Origin: Streptomyces sp. NBC_01276
Lineage (GTDB): Bacteria; Actinomycetota; Actinomycetes; Streptomycetales; Streptomycetaceae
DNA length: 64,000 nucleotides
Assembly: GCF_041435355.1 (NCBI RefSeq)
Contig: NZ_CP108442.1
Span: 310,001-374,000, forward strand
Reading direction: 5' to 3'
Shown: piece after piece, positions 31,830 through 48,902 of the stretch
How the letters are laid out: each line of letters starts with the position of its first letter
Position numbering within the stretch: the first letter of the stretch is position 1
Notes under the pieces: model-generated
Told to the model about the DNA's origin: nothing
The model's input: only the letters and a program-made list of their open reading frames with translations
Databases searched by the model: none
Translations under genes and position numbers: made by a program

Positions 31830-33647
31830 ATGCGGTTCCAGCTATTGGGGCCCCTGAGTATTGCGCACGGCCCCGAGACAGTGGTTCTCAAACCGTCCAA
31901 GCCCACCAGTCTGCTCGCGGCGCTTCTCCTCCATCCCGGCGCCGTGGTTTCCACCGGCTATCTCCTGCGCGCCGTTTGGGACGAGGAGCCGCCCGCGACC
32001 GCGCGGGCCGCGCTCCAGACGTGCGTACTGCGCCTGCGCAGGTTATTCGCGAAATACGGTATATCCGCGACGACCATAGAGGCCGTACCGGGCGGGTACC
32101 GGATGCGCAACGACACCGAGACCCTGGACCTGGTGCTGTTCCGGTTACTGGCGGCGCAGGCCCGCGCCGCCGCCGGCACGGACGGGGAGCTGCACCGGCT
32201 GCGCGAGGCGCTCTCGCTCTGGCACGGCCAGCCCCTGGCCAACGTGGCCTCGCGGATGCTCCAGCGGGACGCGGTGCCCGCGCTCGAACAGGAGCGGCTG
32301 CGGGTGCTGGAGCGGGTATGCGACCTCGAACTCGCCGCCGGCAACTGCCATCAGGTGCTGGTCGACCTCTACGGGAGCGGCCGCCGGTACCCGCTGCGCG
32401 AGCGGTTCACCGAGCAGCTGATCGAGGCCCTCTACCGCACCGGACGGCAGGCCGAGGCGCTGGCCGAGTACCGCACCGTGCGCGACCGGCTGCGCGAGGA
32501 ACTCGGTGTGGACCCGGGACCCGGACTGCGCCGCCTGGAGCTCGCGATCCTGCGGGCCGAGGAGCTGGGGCCGGCCGTCCGTGCCGAAGGGATGGCCGAA
32601 CTCCCCTCGCGGCAGGACCCGCCGGCGGTCGGCGGCCCGGTTCCGCCCCGGGGCTCCGGCGCGGGCGCGGGGCACCCCGGCGGCGCGGGTACGGCCCACC
32701 CCGGCCGCGCGGGCTCCCCGGCCGGCGGGGCGACGCCGGTACGCGGCTTCGCCGGACGCGAGGCGGACCTGCGGGCGATGGCCCTGCGGCTCACCGACGC
32801 GGACGGGCCCCGGGTCGTGGTCGTCTCCGGAGCACCCGGCATCGGCAAGTCGGCGCTGGCCCGGCAGAGCGCGTACGAGGTCCGGGACGCCTTCCCCGGC
32901 GGGGTGACCGTCGTCGACCTGGCCCGCCCGGACGGCAGTGCCCTCGGCGTGGAGGAGGCCCGCGAGCTGCTACCCGAGCCCGACGGCGGCGGGCGGCGGC
33001 TGGTCCTCCTCGACAACGCGGCCGGCGCCGGACAGGTGCTTCCCCTGCTGTCCGGCACGGGCGACGCCTCGGTGCTGGTGACCAGCCGGCGCGGGCTCGC
33101 CGCGGTCGTCGCCACCCACGGCGGGGCCGTGCACCGGCTCGACGTGCTCGGGACGGGCGAGGCCCACCGGCTGCTCGCCGGGCTGGTCGGGGCCGAGCGG
33201 ATCGGCGCCGAGGAGGCGGCCGTCCGGGAACTGGCCGCGGTGTGCGGCCACTTCCCGCTCGCGCTGAGGATCGCCGCCGGGCGGCTGCTGACCCGGCCGG
33301 GCCTGTCCGTCGCGGACTGCACGGCCTGGCTGGCGGAGGATCCGCCGGGCAGGCTGGCGCTGGCCGAGGACCCGCGGCTGTCGGTGCCGGAGGTGTTCGG
33401 GCAGGCCGTGAGCGTGCTCCCGCCCCCGTTGCGCGAAACGTTTCTGCGGGTGGGCTCGCTCGATCCCGCCGAGGGGCTGTGCGCGGCCGGGAGCGAAACC
33501 GTCCTCGAACAGCTCGTGGAGGCGGGGATGCTGGAGGACGGGCCGCCCGGCCAGCCGTACCGGATCCATGCCTTCCTCCAGGTCTACGCGCGGTGGCTGG
33601 CCCGGGACGGCGAGGACGCGGCGGCGACGACGTCCCTCACGCGCTGA
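31830..33647 (+). CDS. SARP-family activator with NB-ARC ATPase domain (AfsR-like), two TTA codons
   Basis: Probable pathway activator of the RiPP cluster, 605 residues. An OmpR-type winged helix (1-95, MRFQLLGPLS, LLAALLLHPGAVVSTGYLLRAVW, GGYRMR) and a bacterial transcriptional activation domain (about 100-250, ALSLWHGQPLANV, GRQAEALAEYRTVRDRLREELGVDPGPGLRRLE) form the SARP core. A Pro/Gly linker leads to an NB-ARC-like ATPase with Walker A GAPGIGKSAL (about 334-343), LVLLDNAA, and VTSR. No TPR domain follows, so it is shorter than AfsR. Leu72 and Leu106 are encoded by TTA, the rare bldA-dependent codon. ATG at 31830 follows GGGGGA and starts exactly at the domain. Confidence 0.93.
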   Translation: MRFQLLGPLSIAHGPETVVLKPSKPTSLLAALLLHPGAVVSTGYLLRAVWDEEPPATARAALQTCVLRLRRLFAKYGISATTIEAVPGGYRMRNDTETLDLVLFRLLAAQARAAAGTDGELHRLREALSLWHGQPLANVASRMLQRDAVPALEQERLRVLERVCDLELAAGNCHQVLVDLYGSGRRYPLRERFTEQLIEALYRTGRQAEALAEYRTVRDRLREELGVDPGPGLRRLELAILRAEELGPAVRAEGMAELPSRQDPPAVGGPVPPRGSGAGAGHPGGAGTAHPGRAGSPAGGATPVRGFAGREADLRAMALRLTDADGPRVVVVSGAPGIGKSALARQSAYEVRDAFPGGVTVVDLARPDGSALGVEEARELLPEPDGGGRRLVLLDNAAGAGQVLPLLSGTGDASVLVTSRRGLAAVVATHGGAVHRLDVLGTGEAHRLLAGLVGAERIGAEEAAVRELAAVCGHFPLALRIAAGRLLTRPGLSVADCTAWLAEDPPGRLALAEDPRLSVPEVFGQAVSVLPPPLRETFLRVGSLDPAEGLCAAGSETVLEQLVEAGMLEDGPPGQPYRIHAFLQVYARWLARDGEDAAATTSLTR

Positions 33648-33721
33648 TACGCCGCCCCGCCCGACCCCGTACCGCCCCGGCTGCCCCAGGGCCCACGCCC
33701 GGTCCGGCAGCACCGCTCGTA

Positions 33722-33767
33722 CCGGCAGCCCCACTTGCCCGGCAGCCCCATTCGCCCGGCAGCCCAG
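33722..33767. repeat. Three short direct repeats of CCGGCAGCCC(CA)
   Basis: Copies start at 33722, 33739 and 33757, 17-18 bases apart, within the C-rich spacer upstream of the RiPP operon. Confidence 0.6.
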
Positions 33768-33915
33768 CTCCGTCACGCCCACACCGTTCGTCCCGCACGC
33801 ACCGCCCGGCCCGCACGCGCGCCGTCGCGCACCCCCACCCGCCCGCGACCCGCTCCTCCCGGCCCCGCCCGACCCCTGCGGTGGGCGCCGGCCGCGCACC
33901 CCCCACAGCCCGCCG

Positions 33916-33946
33916 CCCCTCCCTCCCCTCCCGCCCCTCCCGCCCC
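33916..33946 (-). other. Potential G-quadruplex tract on the minus strand
   Basis: The plus strand is an unbroken run of C tracts separated by single T or G bases; the minus strand therefore has seven G runs of at least three, spaced by single bases, an ideal G-quadruplex pattern. It lies 55 bases before the start of the first biosynthetic gene, on the template strand of the operon. Confidence 0.5.
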
Positions 33947-34000
33947 GGCATTTCCCACCTCACGTCTCCGACCCCACCAGACCGCAAGCAGAGGTGTTCC

Positions 34001-36196
34001 ATGTCCCAAGCCAGCTTCGACGACGTCGCCGCCACCCGGCCCCGGATCCGCCGGGACGTGCTCTTCACCGAGACGCCGGACGGCGTGCTGTTCCACAACT
34101 CCGACGGCGGGTTCCGCCTCACCGCCCGCGCGGCCTACCGCTTCGCGACGCTGATCGTCCCTCACCTGACCGGCGAGCACTCCGTGGCCGAGCTCTGTCA
34201 GGGGCTGGGCGCACCCCAGCGCGCGATGGTCGGCGAACTCGTCAGAACCCTGTACGACAGGGACTTCGCCCGTCCCGTGGCCGAGCCGGAGTCCACTTCC
34301 CCGGCCGCGGTCCCCGAGCCCGACGTCGCACGGCGGTACGCGCCGCAGATCGCCTACGCCGACCACTACGCCGACGACGCCGAGGCCCGCTTCCTGCGCT
34401 TCCGCGGCACCCGGGTGGCCGTCCTCGGCGAGGACCCCGTCGCCCGCTGGTGCGCGGTCTCCCTGGTGCGCAACGGCTGCGCGGCCGTGGCTCTGCCGCC
34501 GGGGCCGGCGGTGGCCGAGGTGGAGGCCGAGGCCGCGGAGGCGGTCGCGGACGGCTGTCCGGTGGAGGTCCGCACGCTGGCCGCCCTCCCGTCGGGGTGG
34601 GAGGAACTGGCCGGCTACGACTTCGTGGTGGTGACCGGCGGGACCGACGCCCCGGCCCGGCTGCTCCCGCTGCTGCGCGCCGGGATACCCGAGGGCCGCT
34701 CGCTGCTGCCCGCCTGGACGTACGGCGGCGACGCCGTCGTGGGCCCCCTGATGACGCACGGCACCGTCGGCTGCTGGTCCTGTGCCGCGCTGCGGCTGGG
34801 CGCGGCGCGCGGGGGCGCGGGCGCGGCCGAGCTGTGGAGCGCGCTGGCGCTGCCGGGCAGCCCCCCGGCCGCGGGGCCGGTGCCGGGCCGGCCGCTGGCC
34901 GCGATGATCGGCAACCTGCTGGGGTACGAGGTGTTCCGCGCGACCTCGGGGACCCTGCCGGCCGAGACCGCCGGGCGGCTGCTCGTCCAGGACATGGCCT
35001 CGCTGGACGTGACGGCCGAGCCGCTGTTCCCGCACCCGCGCTGCCCGTTCTGCGCGCAGGAGGAACCTTCCCCGGTGTCCGTGGACCTCGCCGCCGCGGG
35101 CCGCTCGGGCACGCCCGCGCTGCCCACGCTGGAGACGGCCCGGGAGGCGGAGGAGCTCGTCGAGGAGCTGAACCGGCGTTCCGCGGCGGTGCGGCCGTAC
35201 GCGGGGGTGTTCACCCGGTACGCGGACGAGGAGCTGACGCAGATCCCGCTCAAGCTGGGCGTGGTCGAGCTGGGCATCGGGCACGCCGGGCCGCGCGCGG
35301 TGGCCGCCTTCGACATCCACCACGTGGCCGGGGCGCGGATGCGGGCGCTGGACGCCGCGGCGCTGGTGTACGCGGAGCACGTGGTGCCGGCGCGCGGGCT
35401 GACCGCGGGCGGCTGGGGCGACGCGGTGACGGCGGCCCGGCTGACGACGGCCTCCGGGATACCGGGCGAGGTGTCCGCGTACCAGCGGGCGGTGTCCCTG
35501 CTGACGAAGGAACCGGCGCTGGTCCCGGCGGGCGCGGTGCGGCCGTTCGGCCCGCACAACGCCGACCGCCTCTTCGAGCGCACCCGTGCCGGGGCGGGGG
35601 CCGGCCCCTCCCCCGCCGACTCGGCCGCCGCCGGTCTGCTGTCGGCGCTCGGGCACAGCGCGCTGCTGCGGGCCGTGCGCGGCGCCGCGGCGGCCCCGGT
35701 GGCGCTGCCGGAACCGCGGGAGGGGGAGGACGCCGAACTCGTCTTCCTCGTGCGGTCGGCGGAGCGGCTCGGGCTGGAGCCGGAGGTGCTGGACCTCGGC
35801 GAGGGCGCCCGCAGCGGGGTCGAGGTGCTGCTGGCCCGGTCCGGGGAACACTGGGCGCTGGGCGAGGGGCTGGACCGGCGGTCGGCGGCGGTCGCGGCCC
35901 TGCGGGAGCTGCTGGGCGCGGTCCAGTACGCCGCCGATCCGGCGGCCGGAGGCCCGGCCGACACGGGCGATCCGCTGCTGCGGGACCTGGACCCGCGGGC
36001 GCTGACGGTCTCCGGTGCGGCCCCCGTGCCGGCGGCGGGCCCGGAGACCACCTGGGACGCGGTGCTGGAGCGGCTGGGCGCCGGCGGACGGGACGCGTAC
36101 GTGGTGGCGACCGGGGCGCCGGAGCTGGCGGGCGCCGGTGTCCACACCGTGCGGGTGCTGCTCACGGCGGAGCGGGAGCCCGGCGATGACGCGTGA
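34001..36196 (+). CDS. F protein: ThiF-like TOMM leader-binding partner
   Basis: Predicted to bind the precursor leader and present it to the YcaO cyclodehydratases; 731 residues. Residues 10-90 (RRDVLFTETPDGVLFHNSDGGFRLT, LTGEHSVAELCQGL) look like a PqqD-type RiPP recognition element. Then an E1/ThiF-like domain (VAVLGEDPVARWCAVSLVRNG) with two CxxC pairs, C258/C261 and C348/C351, that likely bind a structural zinc. The C-terminal 360 residues contain RPYAGVFTRYADEELTQIPL, resembling the front of a YcaO fold without its ATP-binding motif. The length fits the ocin-ThiF-like proteins of thiopeptide and goadsporin loci. ATG at 34001 follows AGAGG. Confidence 0.88.
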   Translation: MSQASFDDVAATRPRIRRDVLFTETPDGVLFHNSDGGFRLTARAAYRFATLIVPHLTGEHSVAELCQGLGAPQRAMVGELVRTLYDRDFARPVAEPESTSPAAVPEPDVARRYAPQIAYADHYADDAEARFLRFRGTRVAVLGEDPVARWCAVSLVRNGCAAVALPPGPAVAEVEAEAAEAVADGCPVEVRTLAALPSGWEELAGYDFVVVTGGTDAPARLLPLLRAGIPEGRSLLPAWTYGGDAVVGPLMTHGTVGCWSCAALRLGAARGGAGAAELWSALALPGSPPAAGPVPGRPLAAMIGNLLGYEVFRATSGTLPAETAGRLLVQDMASLDVTAEPLFPHPRCPFCAQEEPSPVSVDLAAAGRSGTPALPTLETAREAEELVEELNRRSAAVRPYAGVFTRYADEELTQIPLKLGVVELGIGHAGPRAVAAFDIHHVAGARMRALDAAALVYAEHVVPARGLTAGGWGDAVTAARLTTASGIPGEVSAYQRAVSLLTKEPALVPAGAVRPFGPHNADRLFERTRAGAGAGPSPADSAAAGLLSALGHSALLRAVRGAAAAPVALPEPREGEDAELVFLVRSAERLGLEPEVLDLGEGARSGVEVLLARSGEHWALGEGLDRRSAAVAALRELLGAVQYAADPAAGGPADTGDPLLRDLDPRALTVSGAAPVPAAGPETTWDAVLERLGAGGRDAYVVATGAPELAGAGVHTVRVLLTAEREPGDDA

Positions 36197-38120
36197 CGCC
36201 CCCGCCCGCCGGGTGACGGCCGCCGCCTCGGTGTCCGAGGGGCTCGGCCCGGAGGCCGCCGGACGGTTCGCGGCCCTGCTGGACCGCGCCCTGACGGACC
36301 TGGACGCTCCCGCGGTGACCCTGACGGCCCTCGGCCTGCGCGACGCCTTCCACGCGCCGGCCCCGGACGCGGCGGTGCCGGGCGGGGCCGGGGTTCCGGT
36401 GAGCCTGTACGGGCACCAGGCCGTCGTCGGACCCGTGACCGTGGCGGGTCCGGGGTGCGCGCGGTGCCTGGAGCGGCGCTGGCAGGCCGTCCGGTCCGTC
36501 GCGCTGCGGGACGCGCTGGAGCTGGGTAGCGGTACGCGGGCGGTGGGCGGGTGGCCGTACGCGCACCCCTTCGCCGCCGACGCCGTCGCCGCGCTGGTGG
36601 CGGCGGTCGCCGGGAACGGTCCGGGGGCGGGCCCGTTCCCCGAGGTGCGGTCGCTCGACCTGCGCACGGGCGCGGTCCGGCGCTACCCGCTGGTGCCCGA
36701 TCCCGAGTGCCCGGTGTGCGCCACGCCCACGGTGGACGGGCCCGCACCGCCGGGCCTGGCGCCGGCGCCCAAGTACCGGCCGGGCGCCTTCCGTACCCGT
36801 CCCGTGGAGGAGTACGCCATCGAGGTGGCGGCCTTCGCCAATCCGCTGTGCGGGGCGCTGGGGCCCTCCCTGGTGCAGGACGTCTCCTCGACGTCCACCT
36901 CGGCCACCATCGGCTGCTTCTCGATGCGTTCGGGCGAGTACCTGCGCGAGACCTTCTGGGGCGGGCACACCGACACCTTCGACCGCAGCGCGCGCGTCGG
37001 GGTGCTGGAGGGGCTGGAGCGGTACGCGGGGATGCGCGCCCGCTCCCGTACGACCAGCGTCACCGGCTCGCTCCGGTCGTTCGGCTCCGAGGCCGTGGAT
37101 CCGCGGGAAGTCGGCCTGTACGGGGAGCGGTTCCACCGGGACAACCCCCGGGTGCGGCCCTTCGACCCGGACCGGGAGATCCCCTGGGTATGGGGCTGGT
37201 CCCTGCGCGACCGGGAGCCGCGCCTGGTGCCCGAGGTCCTGACGTACTACCACGCGCCCGGCCTGGAGAACCGGTTCGTCCAGGAGAGCTCAAACGGCTG
37301 CGCCTCCGGCGGGAGCCTGGCCGAGGCCTGCTACTTCGGGCTGATGGAGGTCGTGGAGCGGGACGCCTTCCTGCTCGCCTGGTACGGGCGCCAGCCGCTG
37401 CCGGAGATCGATCCGGCGACCAGCTCCCGGGCCTCCACCCGGGCGATGGTCGACCGGCTGGCCCTGTACGGGTACCGGGCGCGGTTCTTCGACACGCGGA
37501 TCAGCTTCCCGATCCCGGTGGTGACCGCCGTCGCGGAGCGCTTCGACGGGGGCACGGGCCGGATGTGCTTCGGGGCGGGGGCCGGGCTGGACCCGGAGTC
37601 CGCGCTGGACTCGGCGCTGTGCGAGATCGCCACGGACGCGGTGAACCTGCCCGGCCGCACCGAGCGGGACTCAGACCGGCTGCGCGCGATGGCGGCCGAC
37701 TTCGACCTGGTCACCGCCCTGCACGACCACCCGCTGGTGTACGGGGTGCCGCAGATGGGCCGGCACGCCGACTTCCTGCTGCGCACCCCGTACCCCGGGC
37801 CGCCGCGTCCGGTGTCGGCGCTGCTGGGCCCCGACGGGGTGTCGGACGACGTCCGCGAGGACCTGGCGCGGTGCGTCGACGCCGTCGCCGCCCGGGGGTT
37901 CGACGTGGTGGTGGTCGACCAGACGATGCCCGAGCAGCGGGCGCTGGGACTGCACACCGTGAGCGTGCTCGTACCCGGGCTGCTGCCGATCGACTTCGGC
38001 TGGTCGCGGCAGCGGGCCCTGGGCATGCCGCGGCTGCGGACCGCCCTGCGCGAGGCCGGGCTGCGCGAGCGGGACCTGGAGGACTCCGACCTCAACCCGG
38101 CCCCGCACCCCTTCCCCTGA
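36186..38120 (+). CDS. YcaO-domain cyclodehydratase 1
   Basis: ATP-dependent enzyme that cyclises Cys, Ser or Thr side chains onto the backbone to give azolines; 644 residues. The N-terminal part is a C-protein-like (TOMM cyclodehydratase) region with two CxxC motifs (CARC, CPVC). The YcaO domain follows, with SSNGCASGGSLAEACYFGLM and EVVERDAFLLAWYG, where the Glu residues coordinate Mg-ATP, and GLLPIDFGWSRQRA. The last residues PAPHPFP give the Pro-rich C-terminus that is catalytically important in YcaO enzymes. It starts inside the end of the F protein gene (11-base overlap), so the two are translationally coupled. A second complete YcaO is encoded at 46599. Confidence 0.93.
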   Translation: MTRDAPARRVTAAASVSEGLGPEAAGRFAALLDRALTDLDAPAVTLTALGLRDAFHAPAPDAAVPGGAGVPVSLYGHQAVVGPVTVAGPGCARCLERRWQAVRSVALRDALELGSGTRAVGGWPYAHPFAADAVAALVAAVAGNGPGAGPFPEVRSLDLRTGAVRRYPLVPDPECPVCATPTVDGPAPPGLAPAPKYRPGAFRTRPVEEYAIEVAAFANPLCGALGPSLVQDVSSTSTSATIGCFSMRSGEYLRETFWGGHTDTFDRSARVGVLEGLERYAGMRARSRTTSVTGSLRSFGSEAVDPREVGLYGERFHRDNPRVRPFDPDREIPWVWGWSLRDREPRLVPEVLTYYHAPGLENRFVQESSNGCASGGSLAEACYFGLMEVVERDAFLLAWYGRQPLPEIDPATSSRASTRAMVDRLALYGYRARFFDTRISFPIPVVTAVAERFDGGTGRMCFGAGAGLDPESALDSALCEIATDAVNLPGRTERDSDRLRAMAADFDLVTALHDHPLVYGVPQMGRHADFLLRTPYPGPPRPVSALLGPDGVSDDVREDLARCVDAVAARGFDVVVVDQTMPEQRALGLHTVSVLVPGLLPIDFGWSRQRALGMPRLRTALREAGLRERDLEDSDLNPAPHPFP

Positions 38121-38169
38121 CCCGGCCGCCGGCACGCTCCGGCACGCTCCGATCGACCGAGGAGGACCC

Positions 38170-39714: not shown

Positions 39715-39755
39715 CCGGACGCGAAGTGCCCACCGAGAGAAGCGGAACGATCAGG

Positions 39756-42605
39756 ATGAACACCACCACCCAATGGCGAGCGGGCGACCGCTTCATGCTG
39801 CGCGTGGCCGGCCTGCCCCTGACCGCGGCCGACGCGCTGCGCTGCGCGGACACCCGCCGCTGGGCGGCCGACGTGCTCACGGCCGAGGACGCGCTGCGGG
39901 CGGACGCCCAGTGGCTGAGCGAGGTGCTGCACCGGGCGGTCGGCGCGACCGACCCGGATCCGGGCGGACCGGACGCGGCGGGGCGCCGCGCGCTGCTGCG
40001 GCTGCGGCGGCAGATCCACAACGGGCGGCCGCCCGCCGACCCCGAGGGCGCGCTGCGCACGCTCGCCGACTTCGGCGGACCGGGGGCCGGCGACGCGGTG
40101 GAGCGGCTCGGCGGCTGGCTGCTGCGCGCGGGCGAACTGGCGAAGCTGCTGGCCGAGGGCGAGGCCCTGCTGGCCGCCGATCTGGGCCGGGGCCGGGCGG
40201 CGCTGCGCGAACTGCTGGCGGACGAGCGGCTGCGGCACGGGCTGCTGCTGGCCTCGCCGGTCCTGGAAGGGCAGCTCGACGCGTACGCGGAGGCCACCGC
40301 GGACGGCGCGGTGCCGCGGGGCCGGGCCCGCAAGGCCGAGCGCTCGGTGCTCTCGTACCTCTTCCGCACTGCCTGCAAGACCAGCCCCTTCAGCACCTTC
40401 ACCGGGGTGGCGACCGGCCGGTTCACGGCGGAGGGCGGGCCGGAGGGGATCCGGGTGGAAGACCACTGGAGCAGCCACGTCCGGCTGAACGTGGTGGTCC
40501 TGGCCCGGCTCGCGGAGCTGGTCCTGGCCGATCCGGTGCGCCGCCGGGACCTGCCGCTGCGCCCGGCGCCGGGCTGGGGGCGCGAGGAGGACCGGATCCG
40601 CTACGTGCGCCGCTCGGTCACGGCCGGCGACGACTCGGCCGCCGTCACCTTCGACGCGGTCAAGGACCGCCTGTTCTTCCTGCGCCGCAGCGGCACCCTC
40701 GACCGGCTGCTCGCCCTGTTCGCGGAGCGGGAGGAGGCCGTCGGGCAGCCGGAGCTGCGCCACCGGGAGCTGCGCCACCGGGAGCTGGCCGACTGGCTGG
40801 CGGCGGAGCACGGGGCGCCGGCGGCGGAGTGCGAGGCGTACATCGCGGCCCTGCTGGAGCTGGGCATGGTGCGCGTGCCGTGCCTGGACACCCAGGTGCA
40901 CAGCGGGGATCCCGTACGGTCCTTCCAGGGTGCGCTGCGCGCGCTGGAGCGGCCCTGGGCGGAGGCACTCGCCGGACTGCTGGAGGAGCCGGCCCGGGTG
41001 CTGGAGCGCTATCCGCACGCGGACCGGGCGGAGCGCGCGGAACTGCTGCGCGCCCTGCGCACCGGGCTGCGCCGGGCGCAGGAGGAGCTGGGCGCGCCCG
41101 CGGACGCGCCGCTGCCGCAGACCCTGGTCTACGAGGACGTGAGCGCGGGCCGTGAGCTGCCGGCGCCGGCGCCGGCGTGGGCACGGGAGGGTTCCGGCGG
41201 GGGCGCGCTGCGGTCGGTGGAGCGGATCCTGCCGGCCTTCGACCTGACCCTCGCCCAGCGGATCACCTTCGAGGGCTTCTTCACCGCCCGCTACGGGCGG
41301 GGCGGGCGCTGCGAGGACCTCCTGGGCCTGGTGCACGACTTCCACGAGGACTTCTTCGACCAGTACCTGTCCTTCACCGCGCGGCGCACCCCCTTCGACG
41401 CGCGCGGCGAGTACGTGCCGGAGGAGAACTGGCTCGGGCTGCCCGGCATCCGGGCCCTGGACGCGGCCCGGCGCGCCTTCACCGGCCGGATGCGGGAGCA
41501 CTGGGCGGCGTACGAGGAGCGGGGCGGCGGCGCCGAACTGCGCCTGACCGAGGACGACGTCGAGGCCGTGGCGGGGGAACTGGAGCCGGTGGTACCCGGT
41601 TTCGCGCCGCGCTGCCACCACGTGCAGCTGGCCCGCGACCCGGCCACGGGCGCGGAGCTGACCGTGCTGAACCGCTCCTACGGCGGGCTGTCCTTCCCCT
41701 TCAGCCGTTTCACCCACGTCTACGGGGACCGGGACGGCCGGCCGTCCCTCGACGGGCAGTTGCGCGCCACGGCCGCCGCGGTCACCCCGCCGGGCGCGGT
41801 GTTCGCCGAGGTCACCGGCGGGCCGGTGACCACCAACCTGAACCTGCACGGACGGCTCACCGACCACGAGATCGTCTGTCCGGGCGAGAGCGGCACCCTG
41901 CCGGAGGAACGGCTGCTGCGCCTGGACGACCTGTACGCGCAGCACGTGCCCGGGACGGGCCGGGTGGTGCTGCGGTCGCGCCGCCTGGGCGTGGAGGTGA
42001 TCCCGGTGTACCTCGGGTACCTGGTGCCGCTCGCGCTGCCCGCCGTACCGCGGACCCTGCTGCTGCTCTCACCGTCCTCGATGTCCCCGCTGGACGTGTG
42101 GGCGGGGGTGCCGGACGCCGCGGCGCACGGCGGGGTGAGCGCGCGTCCGCGGGTGGTGCACGGGGACGTGGTGCTGAGTCGGCGCAGCTGGACCACCACG
42201 GCGGGGCGACTGCCCGTCCACGGGGCGCGGGAGGCCGCGCACTTCCTGGAGTGGCAGCGCTGGCGACGGGCCCACGGGCTGCCGGAGCGGGTGTTCGCGA
42301 CGGTGTCGGCGGGTCCGTCGGCGCTGGGGGCGAAACCGCAGTACGTGGACTTCGCGAGCCTGCTGTCGCTGGCGGCCTTCGAGCCGCTGCTGCGGGAGGG
42401 CGGCCACCGGGTGGTCTTCCGCGAGATGCTGCCGGACCCCGGCGCGCTGCACACCTTCTCGGAGCGCGGGGCGCACGTCGCCGAACTCGCCGTCGAGACC
42501 TTCACCACGACCGCCCCGGGCGCCACGGCCACCCCGTCGGGCCCGGGCTCCCCGTTGTCCTCGAACTCCCCTGATCCGGAAGGCGTTGCCAGATGTCAGA
42601 GCTGA
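39756..42605 (+). CDS. Split LanB dehydratase, tRNA-Glu-dependent glutamylation subunit
   Basis: Transfers glutamate from glutamyl-tRNA onto Ser and Thr side chains of the precursor as the first half of dehydration; 949 residues. It covers the Lant_dehydr_N domain only: RDFMLRVAGLPL-like start, RKAERSVLSYLFRTACKTSPFSTFTGVA (a hallmark block), RLNVVVLARL, and later RSYGGLSFPFSRFTHVYG and FATVSAGPSALGAKPQYVDF. The C-terminal elimination domain found in full LanB is missing and is supplied by the next gene, as in TbtB/TbtC and GodF/GodG. The start may be ATG 39756 or GTG 39726. It overlaps the next gene by 13 bases. Confidence 0.92.
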   Translation: MNTTTQWRAGDRFMLRVAGLPLTAADALRCADTRRWAADVLTAEDALRADAQWLSEVLHRAVGATDPDPGGPDAAGRRALLRLRRQIHNGRPPADPEGALRTLADFGGPGAGDAVERLGGWLLRAGELAKLLAEGEALLAADLGRGRAALRELLADERLRHGLLLASPVLEGQLDAYAEATADGAVPRGRARKAERSVLSYLFRTACKTSPFSTFTGVATGRFTAEGGPEGIRVEDHWSSHVRLNVVVLARLAELVLADPVRRRDLPLRPAPGWGREEDRIRYVRRSVTAGDDSAAVTFDAVKDRLFFLRRSGTLDRLLALFAEREEAVGQPELRHRELRHRELADWLAAEHGAPAAECEAYIAALLELGMVRVPCLDTQVHSGDPVRSFQGALRALERPWAEALAGLLEEPARVLERYPHADRAERAELLRALRTGLRRAQEELGAPADAPLPQTLVYEDVSAGRELPAPAPAWAREGSGGGALRSVERILPAFDLTLAQRITFEGFFTARYGRGGRCEDLLGLVHDFHEDFFDQYLSFTARRTPFDARGEYVPEENWLGLPGIRALDAARRAFTGRMREHWAAYEERGGGAELRLTEDDVEAVAGELEPVVPGFAPRCHHVQLARDPATGAELTVLNRSYGGLSFPFSRFTHVYGDRDGRPSLDGQLRATAAAVTPPGAVFAEVTGGPVTTNLNLHGRLTDHEIVCPGESGTLPEERLLRLDDLYAQHVPGTGRVVLRSRRLGVEVIPVYLGYLVPLALPAVPRTLLLLSPSSMSPLDVWAGVPDAAAHGGVSARPRVVHGDVVLSRRSWTTTAGRLPVHGAREAAHFLEWQRWRRAHGLPERVFATVSAGPSALGAKPQYVDFASLLSLAAFEPLLREGGHRVVFREMLPDPGALHTFSERGAHVAELAVETFTTTAPGATATPSGPGSPLSSNSPDPEGVARCQS

Positions 42606-43672
42606 CCCCGACGCGTGGCGCGTGGCAGGCCATGCACATCTTCTACGCCGCCAACCCGCAGCCCCTGCTGGTGCGGTGCGTGCGCCCGCTGATCGCCTCG
42701 CTCGCAGAGGACGGCCTGCTGGCGGGCCACTTCTTCATCAACTACTGGCTGGAAGGGCCGCACGTGCGGCTGCGGCTGTGCCCGGTGGCCCCCGAGGCGG
42801 AGCCCGAGGTGCGGCGGCGCACCGAGGAGGCGGTGGCCGCCTTCCTGAAGGCCCGGCCGGCGCTGTACGAGGTGGACTCCGGATTCCTCAACGAGTTCTA
42901 CAACACGCTCTTCGACATCGAGTTCCCCGAGGGGGACCGGGCCGCCTTCATGGGCGCCGACGGCCGGATGAACCTGCGCCCCAACAACTCCTTCTCCTGG
43001 GAGCCGTACGAACCGGAGTTCGGCAAGTACGGCGGTCCGGCCGGGGTCGAGCTCGCCGAGTGGCACTTCGCCCGCTCCAGCGATCTGGTCATGGAGGCCC
43101 TGGGCTCGATGAACCTGCACCTGCGGACGGTGCTGCTGGGCACGTCGGCGCAGCTGATGATGGTGATGGCGGGGGTGTTCCTGCCCGACCGGGAGGAGCT
43201 CGGCGGCTACCTCGACCGTTACTACGAGTTCTGGCACCGGGCCTTCCCGGGCACCGGGTTCATCGGCTCCTCCGAGTACGACCGCACCTACGAGCAGACC
43301 GCCCCCGGGCTCGCGCGCCGCTTCGCGGGGGTGCTGGCGGCGCTCGGCTCCGGGGAGACCGGCCGGCTGCCCGCCTTCCTCGCCGGCTGGGCCGAGCACT
43401 GCCGGGAGCTGCGGCGGCGGGCCGAGGCGCTCGCCGTCGACGGGGAGCTGGTGTTCCGCTCGTGGGACGGGACCCGCGACGAGCGGGTGACGGATCCGGC
43501 GGTGGCGCTGCCGCTGCTGCTCTCCCCCTACATGCACATGACGAACAACCGGCTGCACGTGACCATCCGGGACGAGGCCTATCTCGCGCACCTGCTGGGC
43601 CGGGTGCTGCGGGAGGGCGTGCCCGGGGGCGCCTCGCCGGACCCGGCCGGGGCGGAGGTGGTCGGGCCGTGA
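42593..43672 (+). CDS. Split LanB dehydratase, glutamate-elimination subunit
   Basis: Removes glutamate from glutamylated Ser/Thr to leave dehydroalanine and dehydrobutyrine; 359 residues. This is the SpaB_C/thiopeptide-type bacteriocin domain alone: WQAMHIFYAANPQPLLVRCVRPL, HFFINYWLEGPHVRLRL, SWEPYEPEFGKYGGPAGVELAEWHFARSSD (the conserved YxPExxRYGG-like block) and MHMTNNRLHVTIRDEAYLAHLL. These blocks are those of elimination domains such as NisB C-terminus and TbtC; the divergent pyridine synthases (TclM/TbtD) usually lack such a close match. It is therefore unlikely to be a [4+2] cyclase, and no second copy is present. Confidence 0.88.
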   Translation: MSELTPTRGAWQAMHIFYAANPQPLLVRCVRPLIASLAEDGLLAGHFFINYWLEGPHVRLRLCPVAPEAEPEVRRRTEEAVAAFLKARPALYEVDSGFLNEFYNTLFDIEFPEGDRAAFMGADGRMNLRPNNSFSWEPYEPEFGKYGGPAGVELAEWHFARSSDLVMEALGSMNLHLRTVLLGTSAQLMMVMAGVFLPDREELGGYLDRYYEFWHRAFPGTGFIGSSEYDRTYEQTAPGLARRFAGVLAALGSGETGRLPAFLAGWAEHCRELRRRAEALAVDGELVFRSWDGTRDERVTDPAVALPLLLSPYMHMTNNRLHVTIRDEAYLAHLLGRVLREGVPGGASPDPAGAEVVGP

Positions 43673-44775
43673 GCACGCCGTCGGGGATGCTGGAGCACCG
43701 GCCGGCGCTGCGGCCGGGGATCCTGCTGTCGCCGCCGCTGCTGAACGGCCCGGCCGTGGTGCACCTGGTGAAGGATCCGGTGTCCGGGTCCTCCTTCGAG
43801 ATCGGGCCGAAGGAGTACTTCCTGGTCTCGCGGCTGGACGGCTCGCGCAGCCTCGCGGAGATCGGCGAGGCCTACGGCCGGGCCTTCGGGCGCCGCCTGG
43901 GCGAGCGGAACTGGCAGCAGCTGCTCGGGCTGCTGGGGAGCCGGCGGCTGCTGGCGGGCGGTCCGCTCCCGGAGCCCGCGGCCGGACCGGGACCGCAGCG
44001 CACCGGGACCCTGCTGCGCGGGACCCTGCGGCTGGTCGCGGACGCCGACGCGACGACGGCGCGGCTGCACCGGTTCCTGCGGCCGGTCCTGCGGCCGGTG
44101 GCGGTGGGGGCGCTGATCCTCGTATGCCTGGGCATGGAAGGGGTGCTGGCTCTCGCGGCCGGGGAACTCCTGGAGGACCTGTGGTGGTTGCTGTCGCGCC
44201 CGGTGCCGCTGCTGGCGGTGGCCACGCTGCTGTGGTTGAGCACCGCCCTGCACGAGTTCGCGCACGGGATCGCCGCCCGGCACGTCGGCGGTACGGTCGG
44301 GGAGATCGGGCTGCGCTGGCGGCTGCCGGTCGCGATCATGTACTGCACCGTCGACAACTACCGCTACCTGCGGCGTCGTCGCCAGCAGCTGGCGGTCGCC
44401 GGGGCGGGCGCCTTCGCCAACCTGTTGTTCCTGCTGCCCTTCTTCGGCTGGTGGGCCGCACTGCCCACCGACGACGCCACCGGGCGGGTGCTGGGCGCGC
44501 TGCTGCTGCTCGGCAGCGCCCAGGCCCTGGTCAACCTCGTCCCGCTGCCGCCGCTCGACGGCTACGCGCTGCTCGGGCACGCCCTGCGCGTGACCCGGCT
44601 GGCGCCCGCCAGCTCGGCCTACCTGCGGCTGCGGATGCGCGACCGCGCCGCCGCGGACGCGTACCCGCGCCGGGCCCGGCGGCTCTACCTCGGCTACGGC
44701 ATCGGCTCGGCCGTGCTGGTCCTGCTCCTGGCCGGGGCCGCGGCGGCCGCCGTGGTCCTCACCGTCCGTACCTGA
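43669..44775 (+). CDS. PqqD-like domain plus M50 site-2-type membrane metalloprotease
   Basis: A 368-residue membrane protein. Residues 20-95 are PqqD-like (FEIGPKEYFLVSRLDGSRSLAEIGEAYGRAFG, WQQLLGLLGSRRLLAG), a possible leader-recognition module. The membrane part has about six helices with the zinc site HEFAH (H195, E196, H199) and the third ligand motif LPPLDGYALLGH (D297) of site-2 proteases. Related proteins are called putative peptide zinc metalloproteases and appear in RiPP loci. It is the best candidate for leader removal or processing coupled to export. GTG start overlaps the preceding stop by GTGA. Confidence 0.85.
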   Translation: MSTPSGMLEHRPALRPGILLSPPLLNGPAVVHLVKDPVSGSSFEIGPKEYFLVSRLDGSRSLAEIGEAYGRAFGRRLGERNWQQLLGLLGSRRLLAGGPLPEPAAGPGPQRTGTLLRGTLRLVADADATTARLHRFLRPVLRPVAVGALILVCLGMEGVLALAAGELLEDLWWLLSRPVPLLAVATLLWLSTALHEFAHGIAARHVGGTVGEIGLRWRLPVAIMYCTVDNYRYLRRRRQQLAVAGAGAFANLLFLLPFFGWWAALPTDDATGRVLGALLLLGSAQALVNLVPLPPLDGYALLGHALRVTRLAPASSAYLRLRMRDRAAADAYPRRARRLYLGYGIGSAVLVLLLAGAAAAAVVLTVRT

Positions 44776-44807
44776 ACCCGAACCCCTTCCTTCCACCCGC
44801 TCCGTCT

Positions 44808-44846
44808 CCGATGCCGCCACCGATACCGATGTCGCTACCGATACCG
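44808..44846. repeat. Short direct repeats CCGATRCCG upstream of the ABC genes
   Basis: CCGATGCCG (44808) and CCGATACCG (44820 and 44838) recur in the 88-base gap between the M50 gene and the ABC ATPase, the widest internal gap of the operon. Could be a regulatory site or just leader sequence. Confidence 0.4.
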
Positions 44847-44863
44847 AGGGAACCGCACCGCCC

Positions 44864-45850
44864 ATGACAACTGACCGCACCCCACCGCCCGAGGCACCCG
44901 TCACGGGCCCCGTCGCCGTCTCCGTCCAGGAGGTCCGCAAGCGCTACGGCGACCGCCAGGCCGTGGACGGCATCTCCCTCGACGTGCGCCGCGGCGAGTT
45001 CTTCGGCCTGCTCGGCCCCAACGGCGCGGGCAAGACCACCCTCATCGAGATCGTCGAGGGCCTGCGCCAGGCGGACTCCGGCACGGTGGAGGTCCTGGGC
45101 GAACGCCCCTGGCCCCGCAACACCGCGCTGCTGCCGCGGATCGGCGTCCAGACGCAGGCGTCGGCCTTCTTCGTGCGGCAGACGGCGCGCGAGCACCTGG
45201 CGACCGTCGCCGGGCTGTACCGCAAGGACGCGGCCGCCGCGGACCGCACGCTGGAGACGGTCGCCCTGACCGAGCAGCGCGACGTCCTCGTCGAGAACCT
45301 CTCGGGCGGGCAGCGCCAGCGGCTCGCCATCGCCTCGGCGCTGGTCCACGACCCCGAACTGATCTTCCTGGACGAACCGACGGCCGCGCTGGACCCGCAG
45401 GCCCGCCGTGACCTGTGGGAGGTGCTGCGCGCCCTCAAGGGCGAGGGCCGCACCATCGTCTACACCACCCACCACCTGGACGAGGCCGAGGCCCTGTGCG
45501 ACCGGGTGGCCATCCTCGTCGCGGGCCGGATCGCCGCCCTCGACTCCCCGCACCGGCTGGTCGCCTCCGCCGGGGCCCCGGCCCGGCTGCTGGTGCCGGC
45601 CGGGCGGATCGGCGTCGCGCAGGCCGCCGCCCTGGAGGGGGTGGACCGGGTGAGCGAGCAGGGCGGCTCCCTGGTGCTGGAGACCTCTGCCCCCGGCCGG
45701 GTCCTGCAGGCCGTCGACGCCCTCACCGGACTCGACGGGGTGATGACCCGGACGGCGACCCTGGAGGACGTCTACCTGGAACTCACCGGCCACCACCACG
45801 GGCCGGACACCGGCCGCACCCCCGCACACACCACGGAGTCCCCGGCATGA
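44864..45850 (+). CDS. ABC-2 type exporter, ATPase subunit
   Basis: A 328-residue ATPase energising export of the peptide product and probably giving self-protection. Walker A GPNGAGKTT, Q-loop region GVQTQASAFF, signature LSGGQRQRLAIASAL, Walker B ELIFLDEPTAALD and the switch His in TTHHLDEAEAL are all intact. The C-terminal extension after residue 230 (SPHRLVASAGAPARLLVP) is the DrrA/CcmA-type domain of drug exporters. It overlaps the permease gene by ATGA. Confidence 0.95.
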   Translation: MTTDRTPPPEAPVTGPVAVSVQEVRKRYGDRQAVDGISLDVRRGEFFGLLGPNGAGKTTLIEIVEGLRQADSGTVEVLGERPWPRNTALLPRIGVQTQASAFFVRQTAREHLATVAGLYRKDAAAADRTLETVALTEQRDVLVENLSGGQRQRLAIASALVHDPELIFLDEPTAALDPQARRDLWEVLRALKGEGRTIVYTTHHLDEAEALCDRVAILVAGRIAALDSPHRLVASAGAPARLLVPAGRIGVAQAAALEGVDRVSEQGGSLVLETSAPGRVLQAVDALTGLDGVMTRTATLEDVYLELTGHHHGPDTGRTPAHTTESPA

Positions 45851-46602
45851 GCGCGTACACGGCACTGACCTCGTCGGGCTACCGGGCCCAGGTCCGGGAC
45901 AAGGCCACCCTCTTCTTCACCTTCGCCTTCCCCCTCCTCTTCCTCGTCGTCTTCGGCCTGATCTTCAGCGGCCAGGACGTGGAGGAGAGCGGACGCCCCT
46001 ACATCTCGTACATCGCACCGGGGGTGATGTCCTGGGGCGTCGCCAACGCCGCCGTCTTCGGTATCGCCTTCACCCTGATGCAGTGGCGGCGCGACGACCT
46101 GCTGCGGCTGATCCGGCTCACCCCCACGCCGCTGACCACCGTGCTGGCCTCCCGCTACGTCCTGGCCGTGGTCGTGGGCGTCGTGCAGGCGGCGGTGTTC
46201 ATAGCCGTGGCCATGCTGCCCGGCTTCGGGCTGGTCCTGGACGGCCGCTGGCCGCTGGTGCTGCCGGCGCTGGTGGCCGGAATCACCGCCTTCATGGCGA
46301 TCGGCGTGATCGTCGGGAACTTCGCCAACACTCCCGAGGCCGTCGCCGCGATCGCCAACTGCCTGATGGTGCCGATGGCGTTCCTGTCCGGGTCCTTCCT
46401 GCCGCTCGACATGATGCCGGGCTGGCTGCGGTCGGTCTCCCGGGTGCTGCCCCTGCGCTACCTCAACGACGCGGCCACGGGCGCGCTGACCGGTTCGGGC
46501 TCCCTCGCCACCATCGGGATCGGGTGCGCGGCGCTGTGCGGGTTCGCCCTGCTGTTCGGCGGGATCGGGCTCAAGACCTTCCGCTGGAGCAACCAGTCAT
46601 GA
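45847..46602 (+). CDS. ABC-2 type exporter, permease subunit
   Basis: A 251-residue membrane protein with about six helices, paired with the ATPase just upstream. Motifs of ABC-2 permeases: RAQVRDKATLFFTFAFPLLFLVVFGLIFS at the start, and the conserved NCLMVPMAFLSGSFLPLDMMPGWLRSVSRVLPLRYLNDA near the end. It would form a dimer with two ATPase copies. Its stop overlaps the start of the second YcaO gene by ATGA, which ties that YcaO into the operon. Confidence 0.93.
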   Translation: MSAYTALTSSGYRAQVRDKATLFFTFAFPLLFLVVFGLIFSGQDVEESGRPYISYIAPGVMSWGVANAAVFGIAFTLMQWRRDDLLRLIRLTPTPLTTVLASRYVLAVVVGVVQAAVFIAVAMLPGFGLVLDGRWPLVLPALVAGITAFMAIGVIVGNFANTPEAVAAIANCLMVPMAFLSGSFLPLDMMPGWLRSVSRVLPLRYLNDAATGALTGSGSLATIGIGCAALCGFALLFGGIGLKTFRWSNQS

Positions 46603-48548
46603 CCACGACGAGAGCCGTACGGGAGGGGGTCCCGGCGGGCGCCCCGATGGAAGCGGCCCGGCGCGCGCTGGAGGGGGCCCTCGGCGGCGCGGGCACCGGG
46701 CCCGCCGTCGTCACCCTGGGGGTGCACGACGCCCTCGGACCGCGCGCCGCCGACCCGTTCGCCCCGGTCCGGCCGGGCGCCACGGTCCACCTCAGCGCCC
46801 GGGCCGTACTGGTCGGCCCGTGGGGCGGCGACGGCACCGCGCCCGCCTGCGGGCAGTGCCTGGCGATGCGCTGGCAGCGGCTGCGCAGCCGCAGCGAACG
46901 GGACGCGCTGGAGACCGGCACCGGGCCGGTCACCACCGTGGCGGTGAACTGGCCCCGGCTGTCCCCGTACGTGCTCGACGCGGTCGCCGCCCTGCACGCG
47001 GCCGTGGCGGGCGGGGAGGCGGGCGCGCCCGGCCCGTCGGCGGCCGACCGGGCCCTGCCCCAGGTCTCCCGGCTGGACCTGGAGACCCTCCAGGTGCGCA
47101 CGTACCCGCTGGCCGCCGACCCGCTGTGCCCGGACTGCGGTCCGCGCGGCACCGACGCCCCGCGGCCGTTCACCCCGCGCTCGCGGCCCAAGCCCCACCC
47201 GGGGGCGCAGCGGCTGCGCGCGGCGTCCTCGTACCCGGTGCCGCACGAGGCGCTGGCCAACCCGGTGACGGGGGTGCTGGGCGCGGGCACCTGGACCAAC
47301 GTGACCTCGCCGACCACCGCGCCCGTCGCGGGCAGCGTCTTCATGCGCGGCTACGCCGGGCTGACGGACGTCACCTGGAGCGGGCAGGCCAACAGCTTCT
47401 CCGCCAGCCGCGACCTGGCCTTCCTGGAGGGCCTGGAGCGGTACGCGGGCACGCACCGGCGCACCGGCGCCACCGAGGTGCTCACCGCCCCCTACGCGGA
47501 ACTGGGCGGGCGGGCCCTGGACCCGGCGCTCTGCGGGTTCTACCCGGAGGCGACCTACCGGGACGATCCGCTGGTCTCGCCCTTCGACCCGCGGCGGCCC
47601 ATCCCCTGGGTGTACGGGCATTCGCTGCGCGACGACCGCCCGGTGCTGGTCCCGGCCCGCCTGGCGTACTACAGCGCGGGCCTCGCGGCCGACAACTTCG
47701 TCTTCGAGTGCTCCAACGGCTGCGCCATCGGCGGTTCTCCCGAGGAGGCCCTGCTCGGCGCGCTGCTGGAGCTGATCGAGCGGGACGCCTTCCTGCTGGC
47801 CTGGTACGGCGGCCTGCGGCTGACGGAGATCGACCTGGCGTCCGTGCCGGGGCCGGCGGTGCGGACGATGGTGGACCGGGCCGCCCTGCAGGGGTACGAC
47901 GTGCACGCCTTCGACAACCGGATCGACCTGGCGGTGCCGGTGGTGACGGGGCTCGCGGTGCGGCGCGACGGCGGGCCGGGGCTGTACTCCTTCGGCGCGG
48001 GGGCCGCGCTGGATCCGGCGGCGGCGGTGGAGGCCGCCCTGTCGGAGGTGCTCACCTACATCCCGCACCTGCCCGGCCAGGTGGCGGAGCGGCAGGCCGA
48101 ACTGGAGGCGATGACCCGGGACTTCTCCCTGGTCAAGCACCTCAAGGACCATGCCCAGCTGTACGGGCTGCCCGCGATGTCCCCGTACGTGCGCCCGTAC
48201 CGGGAGCCGCTCGCCGTGCGGCCGATGGACGGGCTGTACGAGGAGTGGGAGGAGCGGGGGCGCCCGCGGACGGGCGATCTGCGCGACGACCTGATGCTGT
48301 GCGTGGGCGAACTCACCTCCGCCGGGCACGATGTGATCGTCGTGGACCAGACGACTCCGGAGCAGCGCCGGGCGGGGCTGAGCACGGTGTGCGCGATCGT
48401 CCCGGGGCTGCTGCCGATCGACTTCGGCTGGTCGCGCCAGCGGGCCCCGTACATGCCGCGGATGCGGACGGCGGCCGTGCGCGCCGGGCTGCGCCGGGAG
48501 CCGCTGACGGAGGCGGAGGTCCGGCTGGTGCCGCACCCGTTCCCCTGA
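46599..48548 (+). CDS. YcaO-domain cyclodehydratase 2
   Basis: A 649-residue paralogue of the first YcaO, also with an N-terminal C-protein-like part (CGQC, CPDC zinc-type pairs) and a full YcaO domain: SNGCAIGGSPEEALLGALLELIERDAFLLAWY, then GLLPIDFGWSRQRAPYMPRMR, ending in LVPHPFP. The ATP-binding Glu residues and Pro-rich C-terminus are intact, so it should be active. It is well diverged from YcaO 1, particularly before residue 200, so it is not a recent duplicate. It may handle a different residue class (Ser/Thr versus Cys) or work as a heteromer; that is inference. Last gene of the operon, followed by the terminator at 48569. Confidence 0.92.
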   Translation: MTTTRAVREGVPAGAPMEAARRALEGALGGAGTGPAVVTLGVHDALGPRAADPFAPVRPGATVHLSARAVLVGPWGGDGTAPACGQCLAMRWQRLRSRSERDALETGTGPVTTVAVNWPRLSPYVLDAVAALHAAVAGGEAGAPGPSAADRALPQVSRLDLETLQVRTYPLAADPLCPDCGPRGTDAPRPFTPRSRPKPHPGAQRLRAASSYPVPHEALANPVTGVLGAGTWTNVTSPTTAPVAGSVFMRGYAGLTDVTWSGQANSFSASRDLAFLEGLERYAGTHRRTGATEVLTAPYAELGGRALDPALCGFYPEATYRDDPLVSPFDPRRPIPWVYGHSLRDDRPVLVPARLAYYSAGLAADNFVFECSNGCAIGGSPEEALLGALLELIERDAFLLAWYGGLRLTEIDLASVPGPAVRTMVDRAALQGYDVHAFDNRIDLAVPVVTGLAVRRDGGPGLYSFGAGAALDPAAAVEAALSEVLTYIPHLPGQVAERQAELEAMTRDFSLVKHLKDHAQLYGLPAMSPYVRPYREPLAVRPMDGLYEEWEERGRPRTGDLRDDLMLCVGELTSAGHDVIVVDQTTPEQRRAGLSTVCAIVPGLLPIDFGWSRQRAPYMPRMRTAAVRAGLRREPLTEAEVRLVPHPFP

Positions 48549-48568: not shown

Positions 48569-48608
48569 GGATGCCCCGGCCCCCTCGGGAGAGGGGGCCG
48601 GGGCATCC
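48569..48608. terminator. Perfect 18-bp-stem bidirectional terminator
   Basis: GGATGCCCCGGCCCCCTC and its exact reverse complement flank a GGGA loop. It sits between the convergent YcaO 2 gene and the precursor gene, so it would stop the operon and the precursor transcript alike, preventing antisense interference. Confidence 0.85.
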
Positions 48609-48633
48609 GTGTGCACGGCCTGCTGAGCTCGGG

Positions 48634-48807
48634 TCAGGCGCTGCAGGAGGTGGTGCTGGTGGTGGAGGAACAGGTCGAGGTGGAGCTGCAGCTGGTGGAA
48701 CCGGCGAGCACGACCTCGCTGGCGTCCGAGTAGTCCGAGATCTCGAAGGTCTCCGACTCCAGCTCCAGGATCTCGTCGGCGAGCGAGGCGAGCGGCGACT
48801 TCTCCAT
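48634..48807 (-). CDS. RiPP precursor peptide, Ser/Thr/Cys core
   Basis: A 57-residue precursor, substrate of the cluster enzymes. Leader about residues 1-36 is acidic: MEKSPLASLADEILELESET, then FEISDYSDASEVVLAG, the D/E-rich helix and VLAG boundary typical of thiopeptide and goadsporin-like leaders. The 21-residue core starts STSCSSTSTC and ends TTSTTSCSA: 10 Ser, 7 Thr, 3 Cys, 1 Ala, with Cys at core positions 4, 10 and 19. Twenty of 21 positions can be modified. ATG at 48807 has AAGGAG five bases away; an in-frame GTG at 48849 lacks one. The gene is convergent to the operon and transcribed from the 48.9-kb regulatory region. Confidence 0.92.
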   Translation of the reverse strand: MEKSPLASLADEILELESETFEISDYSDASEVVLAGSTSCSSTSTCSSTTSTTSCSA

Positions 48808-48812
48808 GGGGA

Positions 48813-48818
48813 CTCCTT
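48813..48818 (-). promoter_or_regulatory. Ribosome binding site of the precursor gene
   Basis: AAGGAG on the minus strand, five bases before ATG 48807. It decides the start against the upstream in-frame GTG at 48849. Confidence 0.8.
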
Positions 48819-48830
48819 CAGTTGGTGCGG

Positions 48831-48902
48831 TCACTGGGTGCGCGACCACGGGACGGCCGTCTCCGTGCGGTGCCCCTCCAGGAGAACCGCTCGCACCGTC
48901 AT
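48831..48902 (-). CDS. Candidate 23-codon small ORF upstream of the precursor
   Basis: Encodes a 23-residue peptide starting MTVRAVLLEGH and ending AVPWSRTQ, on the same strand as the precursor and stopping 23 bases before its ATG. AAGGAGG lies nine bases before its start, one of the best Shine-Dalgarno sequences in the cluster. It resembles no leader or core I know. It may be a translated leader peptide that sets precursor expression, or a coincidence. If transcription of the precursor starts within it (see the phased repeats), it would not be translated. Confidence 0.35.
   Translation of the reverse strand: MTVRAVLLEGHRTETAVPWSRTQ

Follow-up and report, generated by a model that had tools for sequence, protein, structure and literature searches.

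What does a cluster make when it encodes azole-forming and dehydroamino acid-forming enzymes and its precursor peptide ends almost entirely in Ser, Thr and Cys? This question was raised by a locus in a 64,000-nucleotide stretch of DNA (hereafter the window) from Streptomyces sp. NBC_01276 (contig NZ_CP108442.1, positions 310,001 to 374,000), whose genome is 9.37 Mb in size. Ten genes lay on the plus strand at 31830–48548, in the order SARP activator, F protein, YcaO-1, SagB, LanB_N, LanB_C, M50 protease, ABC ATPase, ABC-2 permease and YcaO-2. A preliminary description of the window had named a SARP, an F protein, two YcaO enzymes, a SagB, a split LanB pair, an M50 protease, an ABC-2 exporter and a precursor, and all of these were present, with family scores over the cut-offs. 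It had also described them as one 17-kb unit; this held for the gene set, with the corrections that the precursor gene is convergent to the operon and that a conserved M20 peptidase gene lies outside the interval given (31830–48902). Judged from sequence, the locus is very probably a goadsporin/coryneazolisin-like cluster of the ribosomally synthesized and post-translationally modified peptide (RiPP) class, encoding a linear azole-rich peptide with dehydroamino acids.

The precursor gene (48634–48807, minus strand, stop codon at 48634–48636) was identified by translation, a TIGR03892 match and conservation. It encoded a 57-aa peptide, MEKSPLASLADEILELESETFEISDYSDASEVVLAG followed by a core, STSCSSTSTCSSTTSTTSCSA, whose predicted start places it at 48637–48699 of the window. 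The core consisted of 20 Ser, Thr or Cys residues and a terminal Ala, with no Ile, and up to 20 of its 21 residues could become azoles or dehydroamino acids. Its calculated neutral monoisotopic mass, unmodified, was 1975.729, from which each azole would take 20.026 and each dehydration 18.011. The precursor scored 49.5 bits (cut-off 25) on the TIGR03892 thiopep_precurs model, indicating a thiopeptide-type leader; a Pfam scan gave no match to it. Between the gene and the adjacent YcaO-2 gene a GC-rich inverted repeat was spotted by eye near 48570–48607, unflagged by the terminator scan, and scanning around the precursor for sigma-70 promoters and terminators returned nothing.

Scanning contigs with LanB_C confirmed 143 stretches, of which the best 80 loci were kept for all locus counts given here. 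Seventy-nine were named Streptomyces or Streptomycetaceae and one Sphaerimonospora, and gene order was conserved; the nearest by LanB_C among the loci found was that of S. lavendulae CCM 3239 (95% identical). S. albidoflavus NRRL B-1271 (L018) was among the carriers, and strain J1074 may be one too. The precursor gene was detected at 63/80 loci, every time on the minus strand and flanked by YcaO-2 and M20, which speaks against a chance open reading frame (ORF): the gene is real.

LanB_C (42593–43672; PF14028, 136.2 bits, cut-off 24.4), which by its HxTNNRL motif would be a glutamate-elimination protein of the TclL/TbtC/GodG type, was compared with pyridine synthases. On the NF045556 pyridine synthase model it scored 98.6 bits (96.4 in a second scan; cut-off 325). 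Among 246 Streptomyces genomes, this model was matched over its cut-off at seven places (396–482 bits); at four of them a second match stood alongside at 76.1–102.5 bits, the range of LanB_C, and a further group of proteins scored ~100–190 bits, under the cut-off. At three fetched loci the pyridine synthases read YLYxHLNRL and their neighbours CAHLVNNRL; LanB_C of the present cluster read PYMHMTNNRL. On plasmids that we take, from gene order and recall, to be those of micrococcin and lactocillin, with genes labelled TclL and TclM on the same grounds, the TclL-position proteins read HLxNNRL and the TclM-position proteins had no such motif. When these proteins were aligned, the His of HxxNNRL was found in 8/8 elimination-type rows (LanB_C, two relatives, three Streptomyces neighbours and two plasmid TclL proteins), and its position was occupied by Tyr in 3/3 pyridine synthases over the NF045556 cut-off. 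HxTNNRL was kept in 80/80 LanB_C orthologues. Six-frame scanning gave exactly one H[LM]xNNR[LI] motif at each of the 80 loci, and YLYxHLNRL at none of them. By a separate alignment, LanB_C was 25–26% identical to the TclL-position and 12–13% to the TclM-position plasmid proteins. One PF14028 gene per cluster was present in both genomes searched for this family, and NF045556, motif and alignment comparison found no pyridine synthase (TclM/TbtD) in the cluster. By sequence, LanB_C is thus of the glutamate-elimination type and not a pyridine synthase. With azole and LanB genes both present, and no PF14028 protein in the cluster other than this one, a linear azol(in)e peptide containing dehydroalanine (Dha) or dehydrobutyrine (Dhb), as proposed in the preliminary description, is the best prediction.

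To see how far the locus had spread, 392 evenly drawn Streptomyces genomes were searched (thresholds E ≤ 0.001 for the precursor and E ≤ 1e-60 for LanB_C). The precursor was present in 64 and LanB_C in 67 of them; both occurred together in 63, LanB_C alone in 4 and the precursor alone in 1. The cluster is common, occurring in about 1 in 6 Streptomyces species. In a class-wide sample, 15/394 genomes, from 3/137 genera, matched at E ≤ 1e-4. A protein database held 146 precursor relatives, and the 120 listed included proteins of Kitasatospora, Catenulispora, Actinokineospora, Micromonospora, Dactylosporangium and Nonomuraea; where a name was given it was mostly "thiazolylpeptide-type bacteriocin", and many of the precursors are named by NCBI.

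Core DNA was compared in 109 rows (some genomes appearing twice) with the leader pattern and exactly 21 residues after it, more divergent precursors falling outside this count. The 76 distinct core DNA sequences encoded only 10 distinct core peptides. Among 89 rows with distinct DNA, 14/21 core positions were invariant, and the mean pairwise codon differences were 6.14 synonymous vs 1.09 non-synonymous. Invariant serines were coded by both TCN and AGY (41 vs 48 for Ser3, 51 vs 38 for Ser5), indicating that the residue was kept through changes of more than one base. The core is under strong selection. Over the 80 loci the cluster proteins fell to a median identity of ~49–74% while the core stayed.

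Sixty-one distinct tails from the 120 listed relatives were also aligned from the C-terminus without gaps, two of which had no residues or four; as tail lengths vary, this alignment is indistinct ahead of about position 9. The most constant part was TCSSTTSTTSC-S/C/T-A, and these last 13 core residues recurred in Kitasatospora, Catenulispora, Actinokineospora and Micromonospora. Most tails had Cys at core positions 10 and 19; at positions 1, 2, 3, 4, 7, 14 and 20 it occurred in 6 to 17 tails, swapping with Ser or Thr. The Cys-tolerant positions may be those of the azoles. The near-fixed core is the most interesting fact about this locus: the cores of most antibiotic RiPPs vary fast, and the question is why this peptide has been kept. 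A tentative idea, which we hold to be rather improbable, is that a single near-fixed molecule of unreported scaffold is produced throughout the genus and outside it, to act like a hormone, bind metal or hit one conserved target and not to serve as an arms-race weapon.

Variants of the usual arrangement were also seen. Four loci (L027, L056, L125 and L129) had two adjacent precursor copies with different cores (e.g. STSCSS... and STSTSS... in L056). In a Streptomyces subgroup (L094–L099) the core (CTSTSSTSTSSSTCSTTSCSA) had its Cys residues at 1, 14 and 19, where the usual positions are 4, 10 and 19, and the precursor gene lay away from its usual place, in one genome (G152) ~11.6 kb before LanB_C.

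Between the precursor and M20 genes, four TGACA/TGTCA units 10–11 bp apart were found at 48920–48956, the sole occurrence in the 64-kb window of TGNCAG (N not G) pairs spaced by 10–12 or 21–23 bp. With this box pattern, which was chosen after the repeats had been seen, a 10–12 bp pair was detected in 40 of the 63 regions upstream of a precursor (from the window and 62 loci, L028 being left out as it had no clear start codon) vs a mean of 0.49/63 (maximum 4) in 200 random-window draws from the same loci. Direct repeats at ~11 bp are the usual form of SARP operators, and the tandem TGNCAG boxes are therefore probably a SARP operator.

Several observations weigh against a SARP-controlled cluster for a linear peptide. 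Identity separated the PF14028 types modestly, LanB_C being 30% identical to the three Streptomyces neighbours, 24% to the two TclL proteins and 23–25% to the pyridine synthases. Its best named match, in NCBIfam (under the cut-off) and in PDB, was a TbtD-type pyridine synthase, and the precursor scored over the cut-off of a thiopeptide precursor family. Three further PF14028 matches lay in the host genome, a pair near 6.85 Mb and a single one at 1.93 Mb; one region, at 6.854 Mb (G000:C1), scored 137 bits on NF045556, under the cut-off, and had no HxxNNRL, and its protein could in principle act in trans. The box pattern was absent from 23/63 upstream regions, and 17/80 loci had no precursor within the fetched stretch. 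Ten of these 17 were searched genome-wide: nine had a precursor outside the fetched stretch, and the tenth, Sphaerimonospora, had none in its genome at E ≤ 0.1. The other seven were on short contigs and outside the genome-wide search. A composition search at the precursor-less loci, one filter of which missed four precursors found afterwards, returned nothing or chance-looking ORFs.

The passing TIGR03892 score, the TbtD/PbtD pyridine synthases as best named matches of LanB_C and the 6.854-Mb region without HxxNNRL would all suit a thiopeptide, in which two Dha residues are fused into a pyridine that closes a macrocycle, by LanB_C or by a pyridine synthase encoded at another site in the genome. 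We consider this very unlikely, given the score of LanB_C under the NF045556 cut-off, its HxxNNRL instead of the YLYxHLNRL of the three fetched pyridine synthases and its closer identity to TclL than to TclM plasmid proteins. The single PF14028 gene in the cluster in two genomes, and the lack of YLYxHLNRL at all 80 loci, also stand against it. The 6.85-Mb and 1.93-Mb regions each had a YcaO gene of their own nearby, and so look like separate pathways. The thiopeptide reading was dropped after the comparison with pyridine synthases and plasmid TclL/TclM proteins.

These other regions of the host genome were noted in their own right. At 6848000–6866000 of G000:C1 (L176), two PF14028 regions, one with HMLFNRL and running on into further sequence, lay beside a YcaO gene, probably forming another azole/dehydro peptide cluster. 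The third PF14028 region (HLMNNRL), within 1926784–1949544 of G000:C1, had YcaO matches nearby, at 1.93 and 1.95 Mb, and is possibly one more RiPP cluster. YcaO matches over the cut-off also occurred at 6.50 and 7.66 Mb.

Less probable still is a cross-linked product, in which unheterocyclised Cys thiols add to Dha or Dhb and give lanthionine-like rings. The core Cys residues adjoin many dehydratable Ser and Thr, and the nearly invariant Cys19 leaves room for a single ring there, but several Cys positions swap with Ser or Thr in relatives, which fits azoles and would break a fixed thioether, and a LanC-like cyclase was absent among the cluster genes scanned.

The least probable product is the spongiicolazolicins of Streptomyces CWH03 (S. 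pacificus): this strain carries the present cluster with an identical 21-residue core (L033), and their reported lengths (accessible part of PMC8838263) would be reached by counting 29 and 28 residues back from the stop, into the leader (AAEVVLAG..., AEVVLAG...), but a second CWH03 cluster (L086), with YcaO, nitroreductase, M50 and PF14028 genes and three candidate precursors, fits better because its Ser-Cys/Ser/Thr-X tails match the triplets of Dha, azole and unmodified residue described for these peptides (accessible part of PMC11583998). Each of the three L086 tails could be read as 29 residues from a Gly, the Ser-Cys/Ser/Thr-X triplets being clearest in the second. With these descriptions in later papers matching L086 better, spongiicolazolicin was set aside as the product of the present locus. 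The three candidate precursors are in tandem at 18636–19667 of L086, with a leader ending in E-I/L-EVLP, and are likely to be the spongiicolazolicin precursors.

For the linear azole-rich peptide with dehydroamino acids, we infer the following chemistry, leader cleavage, regulation and export. SARP would turn on the precursor gene, and probably the peptidase gene too, from the tandem TGNCAG boxes. The F protein would bind the leader (...ETFEISDYSDASEVVLAG) and hand the core to the two YcaO cyclodehydratases, and SagB would convert azolines to azoles. LanB_N would glutamylate chosen Ser and Thr residues, from which LanB_C would eliminate glutamate to leave Dha or Dhb. The M50 protease would cut off the leader, perhaps with M20 trimming, and the ABC-2 pump would export the product, which would stay linear as no [4+2] pyridine-closure enzyme was found in the cluster. 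In goadsporin, azoles are installed before glutamylation, and Dha arises only at residues followed by an azole (accessible part of PMC5303826). By analogy, the same order may hold here; Dha or Dhb would most likely form at Ser3, Thr9, Thr13, Ser18 and perhaps Ser1, which stand just before Cys-tolerant positions.

The roles in this scheme follow the domain calls. The SARP gene (31830–33647, ATG start at 31830) encoded an AfsR-type transcriptional activator with an NB-ARC domain (PF03704 BTAD, 120.9 bits, cut-off 22.1; PF00486; PF00931). The F protein (34001–36196) was called as a leader-peptide-binding protein of the TOMM (ocin-ThiF-like) kind by TIGR03882 (61 bits, cut-off 36.9); on the longer TIGR03693 model it scored 62.1 bits, under the cut-off of 561.9, and a Pfam scan gave no match. 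YcaO-1 (36186–38120) and YcaO-2 (46599–48548) scored 311.8 and 321.2 bits, respectively, on TIGR03604 (cut-off 219.25). They were 45% identical, and both had an N-terminal TIGR03882 domain and the C-terminus PHPFP, which was found in 69/70 YcaO-1 and 73/73 YcaO-2 orthologues that reach the stop. A PxPxP ending is a mark of azoline-forming YcaOs. SagB (38170–39714) matched the azoline dehydrogenase model TIGR03605 (143.4 bits, cut-off 78.4) and PF00881. LanB_N (39756–42605), the putative Ser/Thr glutamylation protein of the TbtB/GodF type, matched PF04738 (135.1 bits, cut-off 28) and PDB 6ec7 (E 3e-33), with no match in an NCBIfam scan. The M50 intramembrane metalloprotease (43669–44775; PF02163, 34.9 bits, cut-off 27.2), the probable leader peptidase, scored 94 bits on the daptide metalloprotease model NF041824, under its cut-off of 300, and HE.[AG]H was present in 78/78 complete orthologues. 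The exporter comprised an ABC transporter ATPase (44864–45850; PF00005, 107 bits, cut-off 25) and an ABC-2 type permease (45847–46602; PF01061, 89.1 bits, cut-off 26.9).

Adjoining the precursor, the M20 metallopeptidase gene (48983–50299, plus strand; PF01546, PF07687) was present at 70/80 loci; that it encodes a trimming or self-protection enzyme is a guess. Beyond it, at 50324–52544, were genes for cyanate hydratase, carbonic anhydrase and a LysR regulator, likely a cyanate detoxification unit, which look unrelated to the RiPP cluster. A gene for an L,D-transpeptidase (YkuD) with an Ig-like domain lay upstream of the cluster at 29046–30491.

Literature searches for the core and leader strings found no paper containing them within a coverage mostly outside subscription journals, and in the literature on goadsporin-like peptides, coryneazolisins, split LanB with YcaO and azole RiPPs no report of this product was recognised. 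The scaffold had been called unrecognised in the preliminary description. This stands in that no product was found in these searches; it is qualified by a cluster that is not rare, by precursors named by NCBI and by the comparable coryneazolisins (accessible part of PMC4603692). Linear azol(in)e-containing peptides with dehydroamino acids are a known kind; this member of it occurs widely, already has database names and, within the reach of the searches, is chemically unreported. If the prediction is true, a hypermodified linear peptide of which our searches found no report is encoded in about 1 in 6 Streptomyces species. The locus would also be a naturally occurring example of how a LanB pair and two paralogous YcaOs divide a core between them, nearly all of its residues being potential substrates of either.

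The goadsporin cluster reportedly contains GodI, an Ffh homologue with an immunity role. Unlike that cluster, the present one had no Ffh homologue and no GodH-like acetyltransferase among the genes scanned with Pfam. It also has two YcaOs and an F protein where god has one fused cyclodehydratase, and an M50 protease and ABC-2 pump vs GodB, and the cores are unrelated. In common with the god cluster of Streptomyces sp. TP-A0584 (accessible part of PMC5303826), it has a YcaO, a dehydrogenase and a split LanB pair and lacks a pyridine synthase, and a linear product with azoles and Dha would be expected.

Coryneazolisin clusters, whose product is given as unknown, resemble the present one in having two YcaO (D) proteins, LanB-type dehydratases, no [4+2] enzyme and a Cys/Ser/Thr-rich core (Cox et al. 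2015, accessible part of PMC4603692). According to the same text, they differ in their host (Corynebacterium vs Streptomyces and other actinomycetes here), in having one discrete and one fused D protein (TIGR03882 is on both YcaOs here), and in a core of 10 Cys/Ser/Thr, Ile and 5–7 Cys/Ser/Thr, vs 20 Ser/Thr/Cys without Ile.

Thiopeptide clusters (micrococcin, lactocillin, thiomuracin) share the leader family, YcaO, LanB_N and a TclL/TbtC-type protein, and many have an F protein; their TclM/TbtD pyridine synthase was not found here. Dehydrazoles, as defined in the accessible part of PMC10676384, differ by a DUF4135 LanMbC dehydratase, which was absent among the genes scanned. Spongiicolazolicins A and B are likewise linear azole peptides, from a strain also carrying the present cluster, and differ in the ordinary residues of their Dha-azole-X triplets, as later papers describe them (accessible part of PMC11583998).

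Two plasmids carried related arrangements. On that of Streptomyces sp. NBC_00316 (L136), a very Cys-rich precursor tail (WSSSSCSCSSCCSCSTSSCCSCSSSTS) was encoded on the plus strand at ~5283, just before a YcaO gene, where the record shows a minus-strand hypothetical gene alone. A cluster on an Actinomyces oris plasmid (NZ_CP116225, L137) differs from the present one in its four tandem precursors, other regulators, a LanB_C 35–37% identical and a hypothetical gene where the F protein stands here. Its YcaO, nitroreductase, LanB_N, LanB_C, precursors and second YcaO come in the same order as here, and its precursors combine the leader ETFEVKDY with a Ser/Thr/Cys-rich core such as STCSSSSSSSSSCSSTSSCATA.

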